This document shows, one piece after another, positions 2,424-48,802 of a DNA stretch of 64,000 bases (positions are counted from its first letter, which is position 1; each line of letters opens with the position of its first letter). Source of the stretch: Ilex aquifolium (lineage: Eukaryota; Streptophyta; Magnoliopsida; Aquifoliales; Aquifoliaceae); assembly GCA_951799425.1 (NCBI GenBank), contig OX637401.1, positions 15,773,501-15,837,500 of the forward strand, read 5' to 3'. Both the position numbers and the translations under genes were made by a program. The notes below the pieces were generated by a model. The model was not told where the DNA came from. It worked only from the letters and a program-made list of their open reading frames with translations, and made no database searches.

Positions 2424-5400
2424 CCACTTTCACCAAGAAGTAGTTCAGCTACATTCCAAACGTTTTTTTGATCCATTGAGTTCAATTCTTTCTTCATTAC
2501 ATCATACCAGTTAGAAGAATTCAAACTATTCATGGCTTGTGAGAAAGTAGTAAGATCATCACACTTTCCAATATCAAAATCGGAATCCTGAAGGTACACA
2601 ATATAATCTGATGGAATTGCAAATTTCTTAACCCTTCACATGTGTAAATGAAGCAAGAATCTCAGTGATGGTGGGTTCAATTACAAATGTTACATTAATA
2701 GTTGTCTCATCCTCCATCATATCATTATGAATAATAAGAGGAGGAATCATTACCGATTCATCTGAACTTTGCGTAGAAATTGGAGTTTGATGTTCCTAAA
2801 AATATTTTGAGGTTGTATACTCCTAATAACTTTGTCATTTTCAACAAATTTTGCATTCTATGTCTCTACAATCCATAGAGGATTATCAGGACAATAAATT
2901 TTGTATCCCTTGGACTTCTCTGGATAACCAATGAAATAGCCACTGATGGTTCTAGGGTCCAACTTTTTCTCTTGGGGGTTATACACCCGAGCCTCAGCTT
3001 GACAACCCCAGATATATAGATGTGTCAAATTAGATTTTCTACTTGTCCATAATTCAAAAGGTATTTTAGGGAGGATAGCCTTAGTAGGAACCTTGTTTAG
3101 AATGTACACGGCGGTTTTCAAAGCATTGCCCCAAAAAGAAACTAGGAGAATGGAGTAACTAATCATACTCCTAACCATATCCATTAGTGTTCGATTCCGC
3201 CTTTCAGCTACTCCATTTTCATCAGGAGTACCTGGCATGGTATATTGTAACGTTATACCTTGCTCCTGAAGGAATCAAGCAAATGAACATAAGTGTTGTC
3301 CTGATTCAGTGTACTTAACATAATACTCACCACCCCTATCCGACCTCACAGTTTTGATCTTTTTATCAAGTTGTAACTCTACCTTGGTTTTAAAAACTTG
3401 AAAGCATCTAAGGCTTGGTCCTTATAAAACAAGAGGTAAAGATAATTGTATCGTGAGAAATCCTCTATGAAAGTGACGAAGTATTTATGGCCCGTAAACA
3501 TCGGGCGAGAATGACCCACAAATATCTGTATGTATGATATCCAACACATTCAAGCTACTTATGGCAACTTTCTTGAACTTGTTAGTCTGTTTACCCTTAT
3601 TATGGTAAGATCTTATCATTTACCAATCCCTTGATTCTCCTTATGGAGCTTTGTCCTAATTTCCTGTGCCATAAAGTGGAAGAATTTTCATTCAAAATGT
3701 CATGTTTCAATCCACAATATTCCTTATCATGCAGGGAGAACAAAGATGTTTCAAATGATATATCTAGGGATAATTTATATAATCTATCCTCTAAAATACC
3801 ATTATCAACCACAACATTATTCAAGTGCAAACTAACCAACGAAGGTCCAAACATAACATGATAACCAAAAAAAAACAAGTGTACTGATAAAAGGTTTCTG
3901 GAAAAGCTAGGAACATAGAAAATGTCATGTAAATATAAGATGTGGTTAGTCTTTAAAACAAATCTGAACATCCCAACAGCTTCCACATGTGACATCATCT
4001 TATTTCCCATAATGATGCTTCGTTCACTTTCCCTAGAGGTCTTTTTGTTCAGCAATTCTTGCATGGTGTTACATATGTAGATAGTTGCACCAAATCAATC
4101 CACCATGTGTTATAAGTTACATTTATGAAATTTGATTCATAGCACACTAAAGAAAGAGATGTGCGTTTCTGCTCAAGCCATTTCTTATACTTGATGCAGT
4201 CTTTCTTTCCATATCCCTTGTTCTTGCAGAAGAAACACTTGAAGTCATTTTTGCCTGCCGATTTGGCAGACATCTTCATGTTCTTAGTATTGGAACATGG
4301 TAACTGCTAGTACCTGCTTCCACCTGTCCTTTCCCTTTATGAGAGGTCAAAATGGACATTTTTTTGCCTCTCTTGATTCAGTCTCTATTCTTCATCAACA
4401 CACATGGTAAGAAGCTGATTCATAGACCATTTATCCTTATATGTGTTGTAAGAGATCTTAAATGGAACATACTCTGAAGGTAGAGTATTAAGGACAAAGT
4501 GGACAAGAAATATCTTAGACATGTCGACTTCCAATGATTTGAGTTGGGCAGAGATGTCACGTAATTTCATAATGTGCTCGCGTACGTCACTGTGACCTTT
4601 ATACTTCAAAGAAACAAACATAGATATTAGGGTGCTAGCAAGTGCCTTTGTCAAAGCTCACAAATTGCTTCTCAATTGTAGTCATGAATTCTTTAGCAAT
4701 TTTGGAGCCCAGAATGGTGCCCCTGATTTTCCTTGAGATATGACTTTAAATGAGTAAGAGGCTAAGGGGGTTTAGATCTCTCCAGTTCTCATGCACCTTT
4801 TTCTCCTCAGGCATACTGAATCCATAGGGATAGGTGGCCTATCCTCACGAGGCGTCGTGTCAATCTCCAAGCACCCCAAAGTAAATATTATTCTATCTTT
4901 CCATTACGAGAAATTTGAATCATTTAACAAAGGGATATAAGATGCAGATTAAGACATAAGGCAAGGAAGTGAAGCTGCAAAATAAAACATTACATGCTTA
5001 CAATCAATATACATGCTAATAATCACGTTTAAACTTTATCTAAATTACTAACCCAGATTAGTAATTTTATTAGTAAATCACTTTTTATGACATTATCTTG
5101 ATTTACCAATGTCACGATGAAACTAATGGCATGGAGTATCATAGAAAAGATGAATTCAAGGCCTTTCGGCAACAAGAATTCAATTTGGCCACAATAACTC
5201 AAACAATTCTTTCGTCCCGCCGTTCACTATGATATAATAGCTTTCCTTTAGGATAAAACCATTATTTAAAATGGTGCAAGCGTTCAATGTCATGGATAAC
5301 AATCAATGTAAATTACTTTATTGAAAAATTTCCTTGTATTTTAAAATTATGGGATGCTTTTGCTAGTCACCATAAAATTAAAATAAATATAACTTTATCA

Positions 5401-19569: not shown

Positions 19570-21890
19570 TGACAAATTTGTATTCACCAAGAGTGAGATT
19601 TATATAAGTAAGGGATATATGAGCAATGAATTCTTTCAAATGAATGTAAGGACAATTGTGTTTGATTTTAATAATAAGAACACATCTTCTACTTATATGC
19701 TTGAGTCTTCTAATGTATGATATGTTAGATTATGACATGTTAATTTTGATATTTTGTACCTAAATTCAATATTCAAATCTAGTGCATCATTTCATACTAA
19801 TGAAAGAAGTATTAAACCTCTAGAATTAATTCATAGTAATACATGTGATTTGAAATATTTTCAAACTAGAGGTGGAAAGAAGTATTTTGTTACTTTTATT
19901 GATGATTGCACAAGATATTGTTATGTATACTTGTTAAGGAGTAAAGATGAAGTATTAGAAAATTTTATGCATTATAAGAATGAGGTTGAGAATCAACTTG
20001 GCCAAAAGATTAAGACAATAAAAAATAATCGAGGTAGTGAATATGACGCACCTTTCGATAGATTCTAGCAAGAACATGGTATTATTCACCAAATTTTTGC
20101 GTCGTATACGACTCAAAAGAGATAATGAATGTCATATTGATTAGTTCAGGATTACCTCAAAGCTTGTGTGGGAAAGCTTTACTTTCAAGAAACTATATTT
20201 TAAATAAATTACCCCATAAAAAATTAGGCAAAACTCTTTATGAATTATGACAAGGTTGGAGTCCTTCCTATAAATATTTAAAAGTGTGGGAGTGTTTGGC
20301 TAAGGTGATGATTCATATTCCCAAAAGGATTAAAATAGGACATAAGACTATTGATTGTTAATTTATTGATTATGCAGTAAATAGTAGTGTATATCATTTT
20401 CTCTTGCATAAATCTGATATTCCTGACATACATGTCAATACAATCATTAAATCTAGAAATGCATCATTCTTCGAAAATGTCTTTCCTAATAATAATGCAT
20501 GTGATGAGAATTCTCTTAAAAGAACTCATGGTACTACGACTAGTAATATAGACCATGAGTCTATAGATGAAGAAAGTGAAGAGGCACTTAGACGCAGTAC
20601 AAAGGTAAGGACTTCCAAGTCTTATGGTTCAAATTTTCTAACATATTTATTAGAAAATGTGCCTCAAAGCTTCAATGAAGCAATGTCCACTCCTAAAACA
20701 CCTATGTAGAAAGAAGCTATAAACAGTAAAATTAAATGTATCATGCAAAATCATACCTGAGAGTTGGCAGATCTTCCTCCAGAAAATAAACCATTAGGGC
20801 GTAAATGGATTTTCAAGTGGAAAATGAAAATTGATGAATCAATTGATAAAATATAAGCTAAACTTGTAGCTAAAGGTTACAGGCAAAAGGAATGTCTTGA
20901 TTATTTTGATACATATTCTACTATCACGAGAATAAAATTCATTCGTATATTCATAGTTATTGCAGCGTTGCATAATCTTGAGATACATCAAATTGATGTG
21001 AAAACAACTTTCTAAAATGGTGACTTAAATGAGTAAATATAGATAAACCAACCCGAATGATTCATTTCTCCAAGACAAGTGAAAGGTGTGTAGGCTTGTT
21101 AAATCTCTTTATGATTAAAAGCAAGCACCAAAACAATGACATGAGAAATTTAACAAAGTACTAATGTCAAATGGATTCACAATTATTGAATGTGATAAAT
21201 GTATAGATATGTCATTATTTTCCTATATGTGGATGATATGTTTACTTTAGGTAGTAATAATGATATTGTTAAAATTACCAAAAAAATGTTGTTTAGTAAG
21301 TTTGACATGAAAGATTTGGGTGTTGCACTTGGTATACTAGGAATTAAAATTTCTAGAACATCTGATGGGCTTATATTATCGCAATCATATTATATTGAGA
21401 AAATACTTGAGAAATTTGACAAAGATGAAAGATATATTGCTAGAACACACAGTTGATATAAATCTTCATTTGTCTAAAAATACTGACCAAAGTATATCAC
21501 AATTGGAATACTCTCGTATCATTAGCAGTCTAATGTATGTCATAAACTGCACTAGACCGGATATAGCATACTTAGTTAGTAATAAAGTAGATATACGAAT
21601 AATCCAGGAGTAGACAATTAGAAGACAATTATCAGGATTCTTAGATACTTAAGATATACCCTGAATTTTGGATTGCATTATACAAGATATCCAGTTGTAC
21701 TTGAAGGGTATAATGATGCTAACTGGATATCTGATATGAATGATGTATCTTCAAAATTCTCTAAGCAAACATGTATTATCAAATCCATGATGGAATATAA
21801 ATTTATTGTCTTAGATAAAGCAAAAGAGAAAGCTGAATGACTTCGTCAATTTTTAGAGGATATTTCAATATAGGCTAAACCCTTGCCAGC
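19570..21890 (+). mobile_element. Ty1-copia remnant, coding part without recognisable LTRs
   Basis: Plus-strand fragments in copia order: the end of gag/pre-integrase (about 19570-19740), integrase core (19754-20068, 'YFVTFIDDCTRYCYVYLL'), integrase-to-RT linker (20404-20709), reverse transcriptase (about 20760-21450, with the 'FLYVDDM' catalytic box near 21220) and RNase H start ('YNDANW' near 21710). It is broken by many interruptions and is clearly an old copy. I see no flanking LTRs or target duplication. Confidence 0.8.
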
Positions 21891-34520: not shown

Positions 34521-34821
34521 TTTCACACTTACATGCAAAACATTTAAACATAACTATTGGTGTGAAGTAACTCTTGATTTGTAATTTTTTTGTCAGTACA
34601 CAATCTGGTTGGCATCCACCCACCCACTGGTCCAATCATACCAAAGGAGGGCCATACCCAATATCCAGAGGACAGAATGATTTGCTCTGAACTCTCTTAG
34701 CAAAAAACCAAAAATCTTAAACCACCCAAATGCCCATACTTAAGGTTCCAGCTTTCATGGCTGCAAAGCTGGCACCAGCTTTATTCCCCTCCAGTTGGGG
34801 TCCTCACGCGTCTCATCCCAC

Positions 34822-34822
<1 letters not shown>

Positions 34823-34859
<37 letters not shown>

Positions 34860-34989
34860 TCTCCTTCACAAGCATTCCCTTCTTCTCTTTATACCAGACA
34901 CCTCCCTCTCCCCCTATATATATGTCCTTAAAACCTATATTCTACTCACCACAAAACAATCTCTCTCTCTCTCTCTCTCTCTATTGAAA
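34823..34989 (+). promoter_or_regulatory. XTH core promoter and 5' leader with CT tracts
   Basis: A TATATATA box lies at 34915-34922, about 70 bp before the ATG at 34990. A CT/TC repeat at 34825-34862 lies upstream of it, and a second at 34960-34982 lies in the presumed leader. Pyrimidine-rich tracts next to start sites are common in plant promoters. A second weak TATA-like TTTATA lies near 34888. The transcription start was not determined. Confidence 0.5.
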
Positions 34990-37619
34990 ATGGGTTTGTC
35001 CTTTAATGGGTTTTCAGGGGTGTGGTTGGTTAGTCTAGTGGTGAGCTCTTTGGTGGTTGCCACTTGTGGTAACTTTTACCAAGACTTTGATTTAACTTGG
35101 GGTGATCGGAGAGCTAAGATATTCAATGGAGGGCAGCTGCTTTCCCTCTCTTTGGATAAGACTTCAGGCTCTGGCTTCCAGTCCAAAAAAGAGTATCTCT
35201 TTGGGAGAATTGATATGCAGCTCAAACTTGTTGCTGGCAACTCTGCTGGCACTGTTACTGCCTACTACGTATGCTTTATATTCTTTTATTTAATGCCCAA
35301 TTTATAAATTATCTTCACGTGCTTTGACTTATGATAGATATACTATTTTCCTATATTTTATAAATTTATACCCAATTCGGGTTTTTCATCAAATTTAAAC
35401 TGTTTGAAAGTTTGTGAAAATTAAGGTCAAATGTCAAATTGTAATAAAATAACTCAAAAAATAATTTTTGTACCTTGTACATATTATGTTTTTATTTTTC
35501 TTTATAAATCTCTCTCTCTCTTCCTTCTTGGAATTAAGTAGATTTTATAATTTGTATATTAGTTTCAACAAGAAAACGGTGAAAAAAATAAAAAAAAAGT
35601 CAAAAGATGATAGGGTTAATATTATTATGTTCTTATATTACATCTTTAATTTTATTTACTATTGTACTCCTTCCGTTCCTAAATATTTGTCGTTTTACAC
35701 AATTTTTTTTATTCCCTAGTATCTGTCGTTTAATGAAACCAAAACAGAATTAATATTGTTTCTTCCAAATTTACCCTTAACTCTTCAATGCATTAGATTA
35801 GGTGTAGGTTAAGTGTCTTTCATATTCCTTTCCTTCCCAATACGTATTGAATAAGGGTATTTTAGTCTTGTGTAATTATTTTTTACTCATATTAGAGCTA
35901 TTTAATAGCTTCCTTAATCCTTGTGTAAAAACCTTAAACGACAGATATTTAGGAACGGGGGGAGTATAATTTTAAACCACAAAGAATTGCGGATTGCGTA
36001 TTCATTTTGAAAGTATCAAGAGGTAAAATGATATTGGTTCAAACTACAAGGGAATGATCTATAATTTCCCTGTACCTAATTCTATCATATTCAAGTCAAA
36101 GAATGTTTCCAAAGCAACTTTAAGGTAAATAAATGACTTTTCTTTGTGGCCTTAAAACTATGTCTGTAGAGTTGATCAAATTATGAATTTTGACTCTCTT
36201 TGCCCTTTAAAAAAAGCAGAGACTTCGCCATCGAAGTGCCAACTTTCACATAGTTCTTTTACCCTGTGTTTACAAGACTCTTCAAAAGCTTGGTCAATGT
36301 TTACCATGCAATCATATTGAGTCATTTCATGAAGGGTTGCTTTCTTCATGCTGAAAACCTTAAAAACGTAATTCCCTAATTATACATATAACTCTTATGC
36401 ATGTACATTAAGAATCATAATACGACACGAATTGAGATCCCGCTATGACTTGCTTTTAGAACGCTATATCATGTTGGAATACGGGTCAATCCTCAACCGT
36501 CCGTGAGGGCAAAGTCCCTTTAAATTTAAATTGAAATTGAAATCGAAATCGAATTGTACCTATACCCAGTAGAATGGAACCCTTTCTAGGTACTATCTAA
36601 ATATAAATTTATGTCTGTGTTTGTGTTGCAGTTATCTTCTCAAGGGCCCACCCACGATGAGATTGATTTTGAGTTCTTGGGAAACCTTACTGGTGACCCT
36701 TATATTCTACACACCAATGTGTTCACTCAAGGGAAGGGGGACAGAGAGCAACAGTTCTATCTCTGGTTTGACCCAACCAGAAATTTCCACACCTACTCAA
36801 TCATTTGGAACCCCCAGCAGATCATGTAAGCAAAACTACTTCTCTCTAAATTATCAGCATTAAGATAAGAATGAAACAAGTTCTTTGTTGGGTTTGGGGG
36901 TGGAGGGATATGTTTTTATATACTTGACAATCATTTTATCGATTCGTTTTTGGAATCCATTACTTTAACCTGAACTCGAGATGTCCACAATAACTCACAA
37001 GCCACATGTATCTCGTCAACCAGAACGTTTTGGCGAGACTTAAACTTGTGACCTCAATTTAATTACCTTGAGACCTTCCCATTTGACTCACCCCAACTGT
37101 TTAGGAGGGATACTTTGGCATCTACCTCATAAATGCATTTGCCAGAATAAACCAATTTAGAGGGAAGTTCGATTGAACCAGTCACTGTGCATTAATAGCC
37201 TCTAATAGGTTCTTTGCTTCTCTTTCAGTTTCTTGGTGGACAACACTCCCATAAGAGTGTTCAAGAATGGTGAATCAATTGGTGTTCCATTCCCTAAAAA
37301 CCAACCAATGAGGATTTACTCTAGCCTTTGGAATGCTGACGATTGGGCCACGAGAGGCGGGTTGGTCAAAACTGATTGGACAAAGGCACCCTTTACAGCA
37401 TACTACAGGAACTTCAACGCCCAGACATGCACTGGCTCTTGCACTTCTAGCACTCCCAAGTCCTCAGATGGGACATGGCAGAACCAAGAGCTTGATGCAT
37501 ATAGCCGAAGACGTCTGAGATGGGTTCAGAAGAATTTCATGATTTACAATTACTGCACGGATTACAAACGATTCTCTCAAGGCGTTCCTCTCGAGTGTAA
37601 ACGATCAAGGGTTCTCTAG
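34990..37619 (+). CDS. XTH: Xyloglucan endotransglucosylase/hydrolase (GH16 family), three exons
   Basis: Secreted wall enzyme that cuts xyloglucan and rejoins it to another chain (or to water), loosening or strengthening the cellulose-xyloglucan network. Exons 34990-35268, 36632-36825 and 37229-37619 join in phase through GT/AG sites to 287 residues, normal for the family. Residues 1 to about 26 form a signal peptide. The catalytic [10 protein letters not shown] is at residues 101-110 (nucleophile Glu103, acid/base Glu107), with the usual N-glycosylation site NLT just after it (111-113). Cys225, 229, 267 and 281 fit the two C-terminal disulfides of the XET_C domain, and the end is the typical Arg/Lys-rich tail. 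By eye it is closest to Arabidopsis XTH15/16 and XTH22-25, so transglucosylase activity is likelier than hydrolysis; the exact orthologue is uncertain. Intron 1 (1.36 kb) holds a Stowaway MITE. Confidence 0.95.
35667..35964. mobile_element. Stowaway MITE (Tc1/mariner) in XTH intron 1
   Basis: A 298-bp element with ends CTCCTTCCGTTCCTAAATATTTGTCGTTT and, reversed from the right, CTCCCCCCGTTCCTAAATATCTGTCGTTT, flanked by TA on each side. These are the canonical Stowaway end and target. The near-identical arms over about 30 bp suggest a fairly young insertion. Confidence 0.95.
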
Positions 37620-40714: not shown

Positions 40715-43700
40715 CTAACAATGCAGCTCTGCACGGAACCGTGAGATCTGCCTCTGCATCATGACAAGCCTTACATGTGCACAGAACTTGTGCGCAGACA
40801 AACAGTTGATAATTGTTCAAACCCTTTGTATTGGCGTAGGATTCATCATTTTCTCAGACTGCTTGGCAAATCAGCCTCTTGGATAAACTTTTTTTCAGTA
40901 TTACTGGCAAATGTAACTCTTGGTCGCTGTAAGCACTGTCCAACAAAGCAATGCTAAAGTACCTCAGAACAAAAGCTAAAACAAAAGAAGAACATTGTTT
41001 ATAGTGCTAAAGCTTTTAAAGACATTGGAGAGTACAATGACACTTACTGTTAGTCTGCAGTGAACTTTGAGTTCATCATTCATTTGGCTAAGGCGCATTC
41101 TTGCCAGTTGTTCTGTTTTCAACGCTTTGCCACATGCTTCTTTAACCTGAAGTTAAATGGCAATGAAACTTTAGATCGGCTACTGAAAAAGAAAAGATCT
41201 TTTGTTTCTTTTACTTATCTGAGTGCACGCTTTATTCTTGATATGAGATTCCACCAATGTAAGAAAAGCTGAAACTTCTACCTCTTTCTGGAGACAATAT
41301 GGATTATAAAATAACTGTTTTTTTTCAAGAAAAAGGGAAAGAACGACAAAGACACCAGAGTAAAACCCAAAACGCAACATATATTAGTCTACCTATTTAA
41401 GCTAACTTAATTTAGATCAGTTCAGAGCAAACAAATTATGTGATCCTATTGTTCGCATAGAAGTGCTTCCCTCAGGATGTATGTAGGTCACATGGTACAA
41501 CATGAAAGTAATGTTGGAAGAGTCGAGTAGATGAAATATCAACATACATATTACAATGTTTTCAAGTAGCCAGTTAGTTTTTCTGCCTAAGATACAATGG
41601 CACATGCATTTGTGCAATGCTTAATAACATGCAAAACCAAATCCCATAAAAAAGTAAAGAATGAATAAGCCCACCTCATTTTTTCTAGCATTACAGGAAA
41701 CTATTTGCATGACAAAGCAAGTTATGTAATACTTTTGCACGGATCCTGAAATGGCTAACCTGCGCCTTGTGGTAACTCTCAATCATAATTTAAAGGATGA
41801 TACACCAGACTTTGGAGAAGCCAAGTTCTTTTTTCTTCCCTTTTTTTTACTAAACAATTGCAAATTTTTAAAGTACCACATATTTGAAGAAGCAAAAAAC
41901 ACACAGCGGTAAGGCATTAAGGCAGGGCACGTCTAGTCATTACAACATCTTTAAAAATCTAGTGCAGTAATGCTTATATACTTCACATAGCTAAACCATG
42001 TATATACATTACAGACAGGTTGTTTTTTCTTTTTTACTTTTTTTTTTTTTTTTTTTGTGAACTATACATTACATTGGAACAATATTATTTAAGGCGTAAA
42101 ATGAATCGGTCTCTTGAGGCCTAGCCACAAAGCGAGTTATTTATCGAAACGAAGCGAACAGTATAAAAAAAGAAGCAAATATTTTAGTTTAATTATTTTT
42201 AAATATTCAAGTTCTAACTTCAAAAATATTAAATATTTAAATGCAACTAAAACCATAAACATTTAAATTCAAACAAACACTAATAATTTCAAAACTTAAC
42301 GGCAATCATACCATAAACATTAAATTTTAAAAAAAAAAACAGTTATAGTATCCCAAATCCTAATATTTGAAAACATAAAACATACGATTCAAGCAACATT
42401 TAGCCTAATACTTCCATAAATCTCGAGGACTTAAAAATCATACCCATCACCAATCAAATAATCTTCATAATCCTTAGATTCATATCCCTTTGCATCGTCC
42501 TATCAAAGCAACGAAGCATCGACTTCTAGTCTCCAGAGCAAATTTAGGGTCGATTAGAGTTTAGTCGTTAGATATATATAGGGATAAGGGGCAATCAACT
42601 GTTATGGATATAGTTATTAGTATTGTATGATACGTATCGTATGATACGTCACGATACACCTGAAAAACGATACGTATCATGTCTTTGTATCGTTTTTGTA
42701 CTGTATCGTATAATACACGATACAATATATACGATACGATACGTCCGATACATACAATGAGTGAAGATTCTACTTTTTTATTTATTTTTTTTAGTTTTTT
42801 GGAGCTGAAATGACATTATTTTACCTTGATACTTACTTTTAAATCACTAGCCAGTGAAACGTTGTTTCAGTGGTTATGGTTTAAAAAATAAATAAAATAT
42901 GTTGTTAATGTTGTTCAATTGAATTCAAAATTCCTGATTAATATGAAAGTTGTTCAAGCAGTTGATGTTAGAAATTTGAATTAAAGGTTTTTGCATTTTG
43001 ATATTACTGAACTATGTTGGGAACTTGAATAGTTGATGGAATATTAATGAAATGCTATGTTATTACGAGTCTATGACTTTTTTACAAAGGTATATGTATA
43101 AATTTTATTAATAATTATTTAGAAATTAAAATTGTACGTATCTTACAATACACGATACATGATACGATACAGTATTTTTAAAAAACGATACGCCTTCCGA
43201 TACGCGATTTGACAACTATGATTATGGGCATATCAAAACTTTAATCCAATTGATCAATCTAACGGCTCAACCAACTTAAAATACTTGGCGAAAGCACTTG
43301 CCTTCACTTTGCACTTAAGCGACAAAGCGATCACCTTGGTCGATTTAATCTCGCCTTATTGAAGCTCGCTTCGCCTAGCTGCGTTAGGCGCGACTTTCAT
43401 AGCACTGTATTGGAAGGTATTCATTAGGGGCTCATCCAGAAGATTCAGACCCAACATTCAAAAAGGTCTTCGCAATTAAGGTGTTGTTGACTGTCCTCCC
43501 TATCCCTAACCAAAATCCCTAAAAATAGTTAACAGGCTTATAATAAAGCTTCATCCAAAATTTGATATGTTAGCTGGCTGAAGGACTGGGAATGCAAAAT
43601 ACTAGGTGAAGTAGAAGAAGCTCCATTTTGATATCCTAGTATTTCTCAATCAAAAATTAACTAGCATCGCACTTTGATTTATATGCTCTCTCTCTAAGTA

Positions 43701-46700
43701 ACCACCTCAAAGCTTTCTACCCTGCAATTCATTGCAGAGGTAGTTGGTCATGCTGAGGAAACGGCACAAAAGCATGTGCAATGTCCGGGGAAGATACACT
43801 TAAAAAATGAGGTATTCAACACCGAGTAACTAACCTTTGCTGATGCTAACATTATGTTCACCACTGACCAATTCTACAGATCCTTCACATGATATCTTCC
43901 TTTTTTCAGTTTTTTTTCTTTTCAGCGGGCAACCAAATTTGTTACATCTTTGTACTACTTTCAGCAATTGCAAGGAGTCTACCAGACGTGTTCGAAAAAT
44001 TTGATGTTTTTCTGTTTCTTACCTACTTCTAACCAAGTTTTGCTCTCTCTTGGGATCCAAAACCTCAACTGCATCAAACAAGGAGCTGACCTCTAGGATT
44101 AATTTACACCAGACACTTGAGGAAATGCTTTCCAAAATATCTACAACAAAACATGTGTTGACACTAAGACATTTTATCACCCCCCGGCAAGTTCTCTGTT
44201 CGTATTTTTAAGAGAGCTTTTATCCTACATCAAATGATTAGGGCCACCCAAGGTTGGTTTATATGCTTAAAGGGCCCCTACACTCATTGTCAATTAGTTT
44301 TGGATTAGATACTTTAACACGAATCGGGGCTGGGCCTTTGGGCGGTTAAAAGGTCAAGTCTCTTACCCATTTAAATATGCCGGTATGCATATTTATCTTT
44401 TTTTTTTTAGGTATTCCCGGTTCCAACGTGAATGAGGGTGTAAAGGAAACTTGTATCCTACATCTAAATTAGCATTACCCAATGTTGGTTTATATGCTTA
44501 AGGGCCTCTCCACTCATTGTCAACTGGTTTTTGGTTTGATGTTTTGAAAATATGAAATCATAATGTCCAAGCAGAACTTCTGCATCATATATCTATGTAT
44601 AATATGTATCCCTGCACAAACTTGCTAATCTAAAACCTTAAGAATATACAAATGCCTAGTGAAGAGCGCACATTACCATCAGAATTGCAACTGGTAACTT
44701 CAGGCCACTGAAAAAACATGGTGACACTGATACTTAAAAGTGAAGTCTTTTTTCTTCCTTTTTCAAGATTTGCCAATTACTTCTTTGGATACATTCAGAA
44801 GCACCATTTTAAATTGGATATTAATCAGCTAGTTTGGATACATTCAGAAGCACACGGGTGGCAGCCTCTAACTTTTTGAGTCAGAGCCTCTAATACATTC
44901 AGAGGCTGTGATGGTTGAGCTCTCACTGGTAAAAGTCCACATGAACAACATAAGTCAGCTGCCAGCCATGATGCAGAAAAACCGATGACATTGGCTTGCT
45001 CCATGCAGGCCAACTGTCAGCAATATCCTCGACCAACAAAAAGGAAGGCCTGGGCCAACTCCAGCAATGTGCATCACCATTGATAACACAACAGTGTGCA
45101 ATCATTCGTACGGATGGGATAACTAGGATGAGACAAACAGCTACAATTTCTAGGATAATCTCCCAAGCCATCAGATTTCATCATTATCATGGTTTTGAGT
45201 GGTTGACAAACACCATTCTCCTCAAACACTAACAGTGAACATACAATTCCTTCACAAGGAGATATACATTTTAACTCAACTCATGCTTCTAAGCCAATTT
45301 CACAGTCTAAGCAATATTTGGAGAATTAAAGCTAGCAGTTATCCTTAAAACTTCTCAATATTTTCAACCACGATATGTGAGGACATCAAAACAAGAATTC
45401 TAAAATTCTCTCATAGTGAGCATGCCACAAGGTGAAGTGCATTAGTAAACAGAACATAGAGTAACTGATGCACAAAATTTAAAGCAGAATTAAGAAAGGA
45501 AGTTATAAACCAATCTGAAAAAGTACCATGCATCGTCAGTTTATGCAGTATTCACCTGATTGATGGGGACAACCATAAAGTTACTTGCATCAGCAGCAGA
45601 TTTTTCAAAAACATTCCGAAGGTATGCAAGTTCCTTAATCAACTCCACAACAACTTCTTCAGCATCTTGCATCTGATTTCTTGAGAATTCAAATGCTCTC
45701 TCGGCATGCAGACGAAATGAAGCACAATTCAGACAGTTACAGAGTCCTCGGCATCCTTGTCGATTTCTCTTAAGAATCCCTCTCGTAATGTCAGTAGGAA
45801 GATCAGAAGCTTCAATTTGAAATGGGTTTTGATTCAAGCCAACTGTTTTAATCAGTTTTCGATTGTCTTCAGTGCAATCTGTCCGCATAGCTGTGGGCTC
45901 TATTCCAGTGTTAACTGGATCATTTTGTGAGATTTCTGTATTGCACTTTCTCTTAAAAGTTTCATGATTTACAACTGAACATAATGTCATAACCGAATGA
46001 TTTGTTTCATGACCATCAATAACAACATCAAGTGAACATTCTGGTTCCAACCTTTTGGGGTCGTCTTTTGCGACCTGTTTCGAGCTAACTGTTTTCACTA
46101 GATTTCCATCATCTTTATGGCAATCTGTCCACATACCAATGGGACCCATCTTGGTATTAATTGAGTCATGTTGTGAGACTTCTGCATCAACTGTTCCATG
46201 CAAAGTTTCAAGATTTACAAAGGAGCATAACATCGAAGCTGAAAGATTTGCTCCACAACCATAAGCAAGATTATCCTGGGAAGATCCTCCTTCCAATTTT
46301 TCAGGGCTATCTGTTTTAACCTCTCCAAGTGGTAATGCCCCTTCCACCTGTGAATCTAATGGCATGTGAAGCTCAGCAGATGATACCAAATTTAGCTCAT
46401 CGTTATTAGGTGAACCACTGGGGGAAGTCAACACAGCAATAGGAAAACTTAGACTAGCATCATCACAACAGTCATCAGTAGAAGTTAATGCAGCTGTTTG
46501 CATATTCTCCACTTTATCTGCAGTATGGTGTTCCTTGAAAAAACTTTCAGTGCCAGATTTATTCATCTGAGTCTCTTGATGGGGAGAAATTATCAAAGGT
46601 GATTTTGGATTTTCTTCTAAACCCTTCTCAGATTTTGGGCATTGACTAGTTTTTGGAGCACCTACAAGAAAAATCATAACGAAGGTTAACTTGAAAAGTT

Positions 46701-48802
46701 TGTGGCTCCATCAAGAGCGTAATATACTGTCTCATATTTTGTGTAAGTTAACAGGGGCAGAGAAAACGGCGGAAGCTCTTACAAGAACCGTCTTTCGCAA
46801 TATCCATCAGAAATGGAAGCAATCTTCTGTAGCTGACTGAACTTGGAGTTCTGAATACCTTCAGTCGGGAACATGGATTAAGAACCTAATAAAGAAACAC
46901 AATGTAACATATTTTACCAAAACATCAGTTCCAAGCATTTCATAGAGTCCAACTGCAAACTATCATGCCCCCTTAAACCATTCAGTACAAAATAGGTAAA
47001 AACAAAATCTTCTTCTCATAAACTACAGTGCAACATCCAAAGATCAACAGATCTTACCAGTTTATTCTTTAAAGCAGAGTGATTTCTCAGGACACGGACA
47101 CAACTCTCAGAAGCACTGCCATCTTTTCTGCTAATACTTCCATTTGATGGCTTCCCAATTAGAGAACCCTTGGCCTGCAAATCATTACCTTCCTCACATG
47201 TCCTGCTATCATCCACCTCGGGATTACTGAAGATATCGGCATCTGGTGGTGTCATCTGAAGACATACTTCCATTGAATCATCAGCTTTATTTGAGAGCAC
47301 ATCATCTTCATGGCTTCTCTGCTCATCTTGGGAGTTAATATTCCGCCCAGATTGAGCCAAATAAATACCTCTAGGTCCTACAGTAACCAAATCATGCTTA
47401 TCACATGGCAAAAGGGGATCGGATTTCTTAATCCCTTCATTTTCTAGTGGCTCTCTAACATTAGAATGCACACAACTGTCCTCCTCTTTGACTGCACAGT
47501 AATTTTCACCAATTGATTGCAATTTGGGGTTTATATGGTTTGTGTTCTGAACTTTGCAAGGAAAGCCTGCATCAACTATCTCAATTTTTGGCACACCTAT
47601 CAGAAAAAATTAATATTACAACAGTTAGTTCCCTAGCATTATAGCTCCATATCAACAGAATAATCTCCATGTCTATCACTAGCTATCAAAAAAGTAAGTA
47701 GGAAAGAACAAGAAGTTACTGGAAGTATCATTAGCAATATTCGTCAAGAAGGGTAGCAATCTTCTATAGCTGAATGAGCTCGGAGATTTGAATACCTTCC
47801 GTCTTCTAGATGAATTAACAGCCTACAACAGAATAGAAAGGACAACTTTAAGTTAGCAGAAATCAATTTATATCTTTCAAATCGAACTCACGTATACCCA
47901 CAAGAATCTTAATCTGAAACACCACCAATAAGTGTATAAGCATTTGTTTGTATGTTGCCGTTTAAGTAAACAATGGGAACCAAAACCAGCATATTGTAAT
48001 ATCTTACCAATTTACTCTTAGAAATGGAACCATTGCTCTTTTCAGCATTGGCATGAATACCCACAGCCACAGAGCTCTGGCCTCTTCGACCACTTTCATT
48101 CAAAATCTCACCATTTTCGCCACCATTTCCTTCCACCTCCGGTGGTGTGATTTGCATACATTCTTCAGTCAAATTCCCAATCCCTCCAATATCATTCAAC
48201 TTTCCGTCACCTGAATACCCATCAACACACTTTTCTTTAGAAGAACAAACAAGATCCACAATGAAATCCAAACTAGAATTCAAATCATCCAAATCCTGAC
48301 CCATACAAGAGAAACCCAGATCACTATCCTCATCTTTCATTTCCTTTTTGTTTGTTTCAAGAAATATATCATTCAATTCCAACTCTTTCATTTTGTCTTG
48401 ATTCTTTTCTGATCGAATACCATCCTTAAGAGAGCAATAATCTTCCTCCATCAAAGACATATTAAGACTCGTCCTATCGGAAGGCTGCAAACTACACTCA
48501 TCATCGATAAACGATGCAGGAGAGAAGACCCGTCTAGCGCGAAGATCTTTGGTAGTAAACGGTTGCTGTTCTTGGTGTTTGAATGCTCTGGGTCTACTGT
48601 GGGGTCTATCATCGAACAATTGGGAGGCCTCAGGGAGATGGTGGCGTTTGTAGGCTGTGTCGGACCTAGCTCGCCCCGATCGGTTCCGGTGGAGATATAT
48701 CTGAGACTTGCTGCGAGTGAATACACCGAAGAAGGGATTGGATTGTGACGATGGTTGTTTAAGTTTTCTGGAGCTTAGAAGCTTTGCTGATTCCATGGCC
48801 AT
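40715..48802 (-). CDS. Plant protein of unknown function with duplicated exon pair and C-terminal Cys/coiled-coil region
   Basis: Seven exons inferred from GT/AG sites and phase, in order: 48802-48008, 47822-47720, 47596-47058, 46885-46783, 46661-45556, 41146-41048, and a tentative last one, 40753-40715; about 927 residues in all. Exons 2 and 4 are each exactly 103 bp, in the same phase, and encode related peptides (KVFKSPSSFSYRRLLPFL and KVFRTPSSVSYRRLLPFL). The ends of exons 1 and 3 are also related (Q-[IM]-TPP, then NGSIS, then KL), so one unit was duplicated. Exon 5 ends in a Cys motif, CRGLCNCLNC, then an Ala/Glu-rich helix; exon 6 continues it (KEAC...LARMRLSQMNDEL..HC). No signal peptide or membrane segment; basic N-terminus. 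I recognise the C-terminal pattern as shared by plant proteins but know no function. The last exon has a weak acceptor and may be wrong. Exons 1-6 are well supported. Confidence 0.8.
41048..41146 (-). CDS. Exon 6 of the unknown plant gene
   Basis: 99 bp, 33 codons, phase 0 at both ends, with acceptor TTCAG and donor GTAAGTG. The peptide runs VKEACGKALK...RLSQMNDELKVHC and continues the helix that ends exon 5 (...PINQ). A 4.4-kb intron separates the two, so a gene finder is likely to miss this exon and use the in-frame stop just after exon 5 at 45541 instead. Confidence 0.8.
42080..43407. mobile_element. hAT MITE in intron 5 of the unknown gene
   Basis: Starts CAATATTATTTAAGGCG and, reversed from the right, CAGTGCTATGAAAGTCGCGCC. 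It is flanked by CATTGGAA (42072-42079) and TATTGGAA (43408-43415), an 8-bp duplication with one difference. The subterminal DNA is rich in GCGAAGCG-type motifs. A second MITE (42609-43220) splits it. Confidence 0.75.
42609..43220. mobile_element. Second hAT MITE nested in the first
   Basis: The ends read TATAGTTATTAGTATTG and, reversed from the right, CATAGTTGTCAAATCGCG. Both ends are packed with ATACGATACG/CGTATCGT repeats. The 8-bp flanks GTTATGGA and ATTATGGG share six bases. The order of nesting makes it the younger of the two. Confidence 0.65.
43416..44210. other. Intron DNA, no feature seen
   Basis: Part of intron 5 of the minus-strand gene. No coding, RNA or element signature was recognised. 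Confidence 0.4.
44215..44550 (+). repeat. Direct repeat of about 90 bp in intron 5
   Basis: A TATCCTACATC-AA...GGTTGGTTTATATGCTTAA-GGGCC...CACTCATTGTCAA block occurs at about 44221-44306 and 44455-44537. It could be the flanks of a lost or short element. Confidence 0.7.
44560..45555. other. Intron DNA, no feature seen
   Basis: Start of intron 5 on the minus strand. Short frames on both strands at 44825-45230 lack domain signatures. Confidence 0.4.

Follow-up and report, generated by a model that had tools for sequence, protein, structure and literature searches.

Tandem intragenic exon duplication is a known class of event. According to PMC2674458, which cites earlier work, alternative splicing often arises through such tandem exon duplications. 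The gene described here resembles the known cases in its architecture: two similar exons of equal length and phase, flanked by introns of near-equal length, lie within one gene. It is found in a window of 64,000 nucleotides of Ilex aquifolium DNA, the whole stretch that was analysed. On balance, we lean towards reading it as a single-copy plant nuclear gene whose protein uses the same helical binding motif twice.

A gene with GT/AG borders is readable on the minus strand from 48802 down to 41048, with six exons placed and a disputed last exon. Exon 1 (48008..48802, minus strand; 795 bp, 265 codons) begins with an ATG at 48802 and ends at the donor GTAAGATA. Exon 2 (47720..47822, minus; 103 bp, phase 0 to 1) holds the first copy of the motif, KVFKSPSSFSYRRLLPFL, at 47745-47798. 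It is followed by exon 3 (47058..47596, minus; 539 bp, phase 1 to 0), which by alignment is a copy of the 3' half of exon 1, and by exon 4 (46783..46885, minus; 103 bp, phase 0 to 1), which holds the second motif copy, KVFRTPSSVSYRRLLPFL, at 46808-46861. Exon 5 (45556..46661, minus; 1106 bp, phase 1 to 0) is open in one frame only and includes an internal repeat and the string CRGLCNCLNC, and exon 6 (41048..41146, minus; 99 bp, phase 0 to 0) is bordered by CAG and GTAAGT. In each of exons 1, 3, and 5, one of the three minus-strand frames is free of stops and the other two hold 8 to 45 each; of 2000 block shuffles made per exon, none stayed open.

The end of the gene is less clear. The sequence-only reading placed it at 40715, which implies a seventh exon at 40715..40753 (minus). 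This exon is doubtful, and the end at 40715 is unproven, because the acceptor before 40753 is poor in pyrimidines (fraction 0.47) and falls far short of the acceptor before 40975 (0.87), the highest of the 18 acceptors listed. The latter gives LLF and then a stop. The protein has 918 residues with the acceptor before 40975 and 927 with the exon drawn earlier.

Intron 5, at 4.4 kb, hosts a dispersed repeat some 610 bp long (at about 42610-43220). Matches of 83-90% over most of its length occur in at least 39 other genomic places, a count for which 40 of 757 first-look candidates were scored. GATACG-rich direct and inverted repeats lie towards both of its ends; the element is probably a non-autonomous transposable element. 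Elsewhere in the window, a neighbour on the plus strand, at 34744-37619, is a xyloglucan endotransglycosylase-type gene (Glyco_hydro_16 and XET_C above cut-off, two pieces scanned). There are also retroelement-type fragments at 2858-3274 (minus; SH3_retrovirus above cut-off, rve_3 just below) and at 19736-20068 (plus; rve just above cut-off).

The 2 short exons are a clear trace of duplication. They had been described as having a common length and phase and as encoding related peptides, and both points hold: each is 103 bp long, enters in phase 0, leaves in phase 1, and has canonical GT/AG borders. The exons align over their full length without a gap, with 75 of 103 bases identical; the local DNA score is 49 against 11.0 +/- 2.2 for dinucleotide shuffles and was reached in none of 400. 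Their peptides share 21 of 34 residues. When the protein was compared with itself by blastp, default settings returned the full-length self match only and altered settings returned nothing; the repeats thus went unreported by BLAST, and the comparisons relied on pairwise alignments tested against shuffles.

These two exons are also the only places reported when the 30-residue peptide of exon 2 is searched against the whole 800-Mb genome at E<=10, in a search that scores first-look candidates only (two for this peptide). The corresponding search with the DNA of exon 4 reported exon 4 alone and missed exon 2; it therefore cannot exclude genomic copies with a divergence like that of exon 2. When the translations of exons 1 and 3 and of parts of exons 5 and 6 were used as queries, the matches were this gene and three weak places, two with stops (E 0.079 and 0.13) and one at E 7.9. 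As far as the genome search reports, the gene is present in a single copy.

The duplication extends beyond the short exons. Among the 15 pairs that can be formed from exons 1 to 6, only 2-4 (0 of 300 shuffles) and 1-3 (3 of 300) fall at or below 15 of 300. The exons that precede the short ones had been said to end in related sequence, a claim that stands at the protein level (for the final 80 residues of exons 1 and 3, 2 of 1000 shuffles reached the score) and is at best marginal for the last 300 bases of DNA (77 of 400 by local and 12 of 400 by global alignment). The relationship extends over a longer stretch: when codons 155-265 of exon 1 are aligned globally, as protein, with the whole of exon 3, the score is 93 against 13.4 +/- 11.4, reached in 0 of 1000 shuffles, for a window whose start at codon 155 was picked after the local match was seen. 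Five control windows gave 208, 41, 286, 292, and 297 of 300. Since exon 3 is collinear over its entire length with the 3'-terminal half of exon 1, the unit reaches into exon 1; on these alignments, what was duplicated comprises that half exon, the intron after it, and a 103-bp exon. At the other border, exons 3 and 5 do start with VPK and APK as claimed, but their first 60 residues show no similarity beyond chance (898 of 1000 shuffles reach the score), and the first 200 bases are at best marginal as DNA (233 of 400 and 32 of 400). Exon 1 also includes a string, RRVFSPASF (48509-48535, minus), that is similar to the start of the repeated motif; the comparison of exon 1 with exons 2 and 4 lies above the limit of 15 in 300 shuffles, and we do not claim a third copy.

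Intron lengths fit the duplication model, at 185 and 172 bp for introns 1 and 3 and 123 and 121 bp for introns 2 and 4. The intron sequences add no clear proof, as mismatched pairs score alike: introns 1 and 3 were equalled in 383 of 400 shuffles by local and 46 of 400 by global alignment, introns 2 and 4 in 4 and 0, the mismatched introns 1 and 4 in 10 and 0, and the mismatched introns 2 and 3 in 18 and 1. Taken on the exon alignments, a tandem intragenic duplication of an exon-intron unit, with both copies kept in phase, is well supported, and so the central proposal of the sequence-only reading is upheld. The copy would have been in frame at once, because the phase shift of the 103-bp exon (0 to 1) is undone by the next large exon (1 to 0). 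Both the duplication and the phases can be regarded as established.

This arithmetic also raises the possibility of an isoform switch, where splicing includes one or both copies of the motif. Skipping exons 2 and 3, or exons 3 and 4, would produce single-motif proteins: 103 + 539 and 539 + 103 both make 642 bp (214 codons), which is divisible by three and in frame. Splicing of this origin is, moreover, called frequent in PMC2674458, on the strength of earlier work. We nonetheless hold a switch to be unlikely. Either skip must also drop the 539-bp exon, and the duplication by itself puts such skips in frame, so that the frame is no sign of use.

The gene has undergone, by alignment, a second in-frame tandem duplication, which was absent from the earlier reading. 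Within exon 5, a 69-codon repeat occupies 46075..46281 and 45829..46035 (both minus), with starts 82 codons apart and 68% DNA identity; its score of 127 against 30.3 +/- 5.2 was reached in 0 of 500 shuffles.

Have both copies of the motif been retained for a reason? Compared over all 34 codons, the two short exons give an omega of 0.32 (bootstrap 0.08-1.02; Fisher p 0.010). The 18-codon core yields an omega of 0.07 at a synonymous distance of 1.06, with 7 synonymous and 3 non-synonymous differences. Its Fisher p of 0.0004 is a post hoc and flattering value, because the core is the motif of the sequence-only reading and was picked for looking conserved. A measure corrected for scanning comes from 5000 neutral simulations scanned in 18-codon windows, where 3 or fewer amino-acid changes were seen in 1.3% (P 0.013). 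There is thus moderate support for selection having preserved the 18-residue core in both copies.

A competing explanation is that the second motif is a neutral leftover: a harmless duplication in a loosely constrained, disordered protein, where one copy of the motif or neither matters and the second is drifting. Near-neutral divergence of the motif flanks (omega 0.94) and of the exon 5 repeat (omega 0.83) fits this explanation, as it implies that the protein tolerates repeats, and over all 34 codons the neutral simulations reached 13 or fewer amino-acid changes in 7% of cases (P of only 0.07). Yet drift does not readily account for the conserved core, with windows so conserved being rare in the simulations, or for the frame, length, and splice sites kept in both exons. 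We consider a leftover a serious minority alternative, well behind the reading in which both copies are used.

Residues 14-32 of the 34-residue peptide are predicted to be helical (mean pLDDT 74.8, in a prediction built from the sequences of the 2 copies only). On this model, KVF[KR][ST]PSS[FV]SYRRLLPFL is predicted to be a short helix beginning at S/T-P. The sequence-only reading likened the motif to a docking peptide. That likeness is compatible with a core kept despite synonymous divergence; it is tempered by the predicted short helix and by evidence for selection that is moderate. The short exons carry a positive net charge (+6 in exon 2, +4 in exon 4), and so do the N-terminal 110 residues of the protein (+10) and its C-terminal 120 (+6); exons 3 and 5, each taken whole, are negative (-9 and -21). 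To judge from composition, the linkers, and most of the length of the protein, are probably disordered.

RxL is the cyclin-docking consensus, and RRLLPF in the motif could be read as such a site beside S/T-P kinase sites, making the protein a cell-cycle substrate. Both motif copies contain the R-x-L and S/T-P strings. When 15 short patterns were counted against shuffles, however, neither RxL-type motifs (6 against 3.5 expected, p 0.12) nor S/T-P sites (10 against 7.0, p 0.14) exceeded expectation over the protein; RxxL motifs were likewise not above shuffles (p 0.07), and there is one full [ST]PxK/R site against 0.7 expected. We therefore regard a cell-cycle substrate as very improbable. TPP occurs twice in the protein (p 0.002, uncorrected), and these 2 occurrences are not independent, because both belong to the duplicated unit.

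The C-terminal part of the protein had been described as a coiled coil next to a cysteine motif, with an adaptor or scaffold role suggested from the two. The motif CRGLCNCLNC is present, at 45724..45753 (minus) in exon 5. The coiled coil is unsupported: a simple test of our own showed no enrichment of core residues at heptad positions (the real arrangement was equalled or bettered by 112 of 200 shuffles), and the long helix predicted for the 104 residues that close exon 5 is a low-confidence one (mean pLDDT 46.3). The proposed adaptor or scaffold role had drawn partly on this coiled coil, for which the heptad test offers no backing.

No Pfam family is matched at its cut-off; the nearest is DUF641 (PF04859), a family of plant proteins of unknown function, which resembles this protein weakly over the predicted C-terminal helix. 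The two differ in that the scores, 17.9 bits (E 0.0042) for the C-terminal 120 residues and 12.7 bits (E 0.16) for the whole protein, lie below the cut-off of 27.6. Among PDB sequences nothing matched at E<=1. Scanning viral, bacterial, and archaeal contigs with 99 residues from exon 5 gave 53 and 57 pattern matches, none of them confirmed; contigs of this origin say little about plants. Neither SYRRLLPFL nor CRGLCNCLNC occurs as a string in the papers searched. The gene may well have annotated orthologues elsewhere.

We return to the reading that we favour, that of 2 copies of one helical binding motif in use. An old tandem duplication would have copied the 3' half of exon 1, the intron, and the 103-bp exon; both copies of KVF[KR][ST]PSS[FV]SYRRLLPFL would then have been retained as linkers and introns drifted. 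We infer that the 2 predicted helices may contact the same partner surface, allowing bivalent binding, and that the S/T-P sites may tune this contact through proline-directed kinases. The cysteine motif and the C-terminal helix would form a separate module. A bolder version is a long shot: the motif would be a helical interaction motif of plants not described before, phosphorylation at its S/T-P start would tune it, the exon-intron duplication would have made it bivalent, and 642-bp in-frame skipping could switch between one and two sites. If both copies are used, the gene would show cleanly how a plant protein can acquire a further binding site in a single step, and its preserved motif and drifting linkers would supply an internal contrast. 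The motif peptide could also serve as a specific bait for this unnamed gene.

Set beside the known class of tandem exon duplications, the locus departs from it in 2 respects. First, the unit takes in a portion of the coding exon upstream, which is why a large exon stands between the two copies. Second, intron homology is no longer clear here. Intragenic exon duplication is already known as an event, and the present gene, as documented by its sequence, is one more instance of it.
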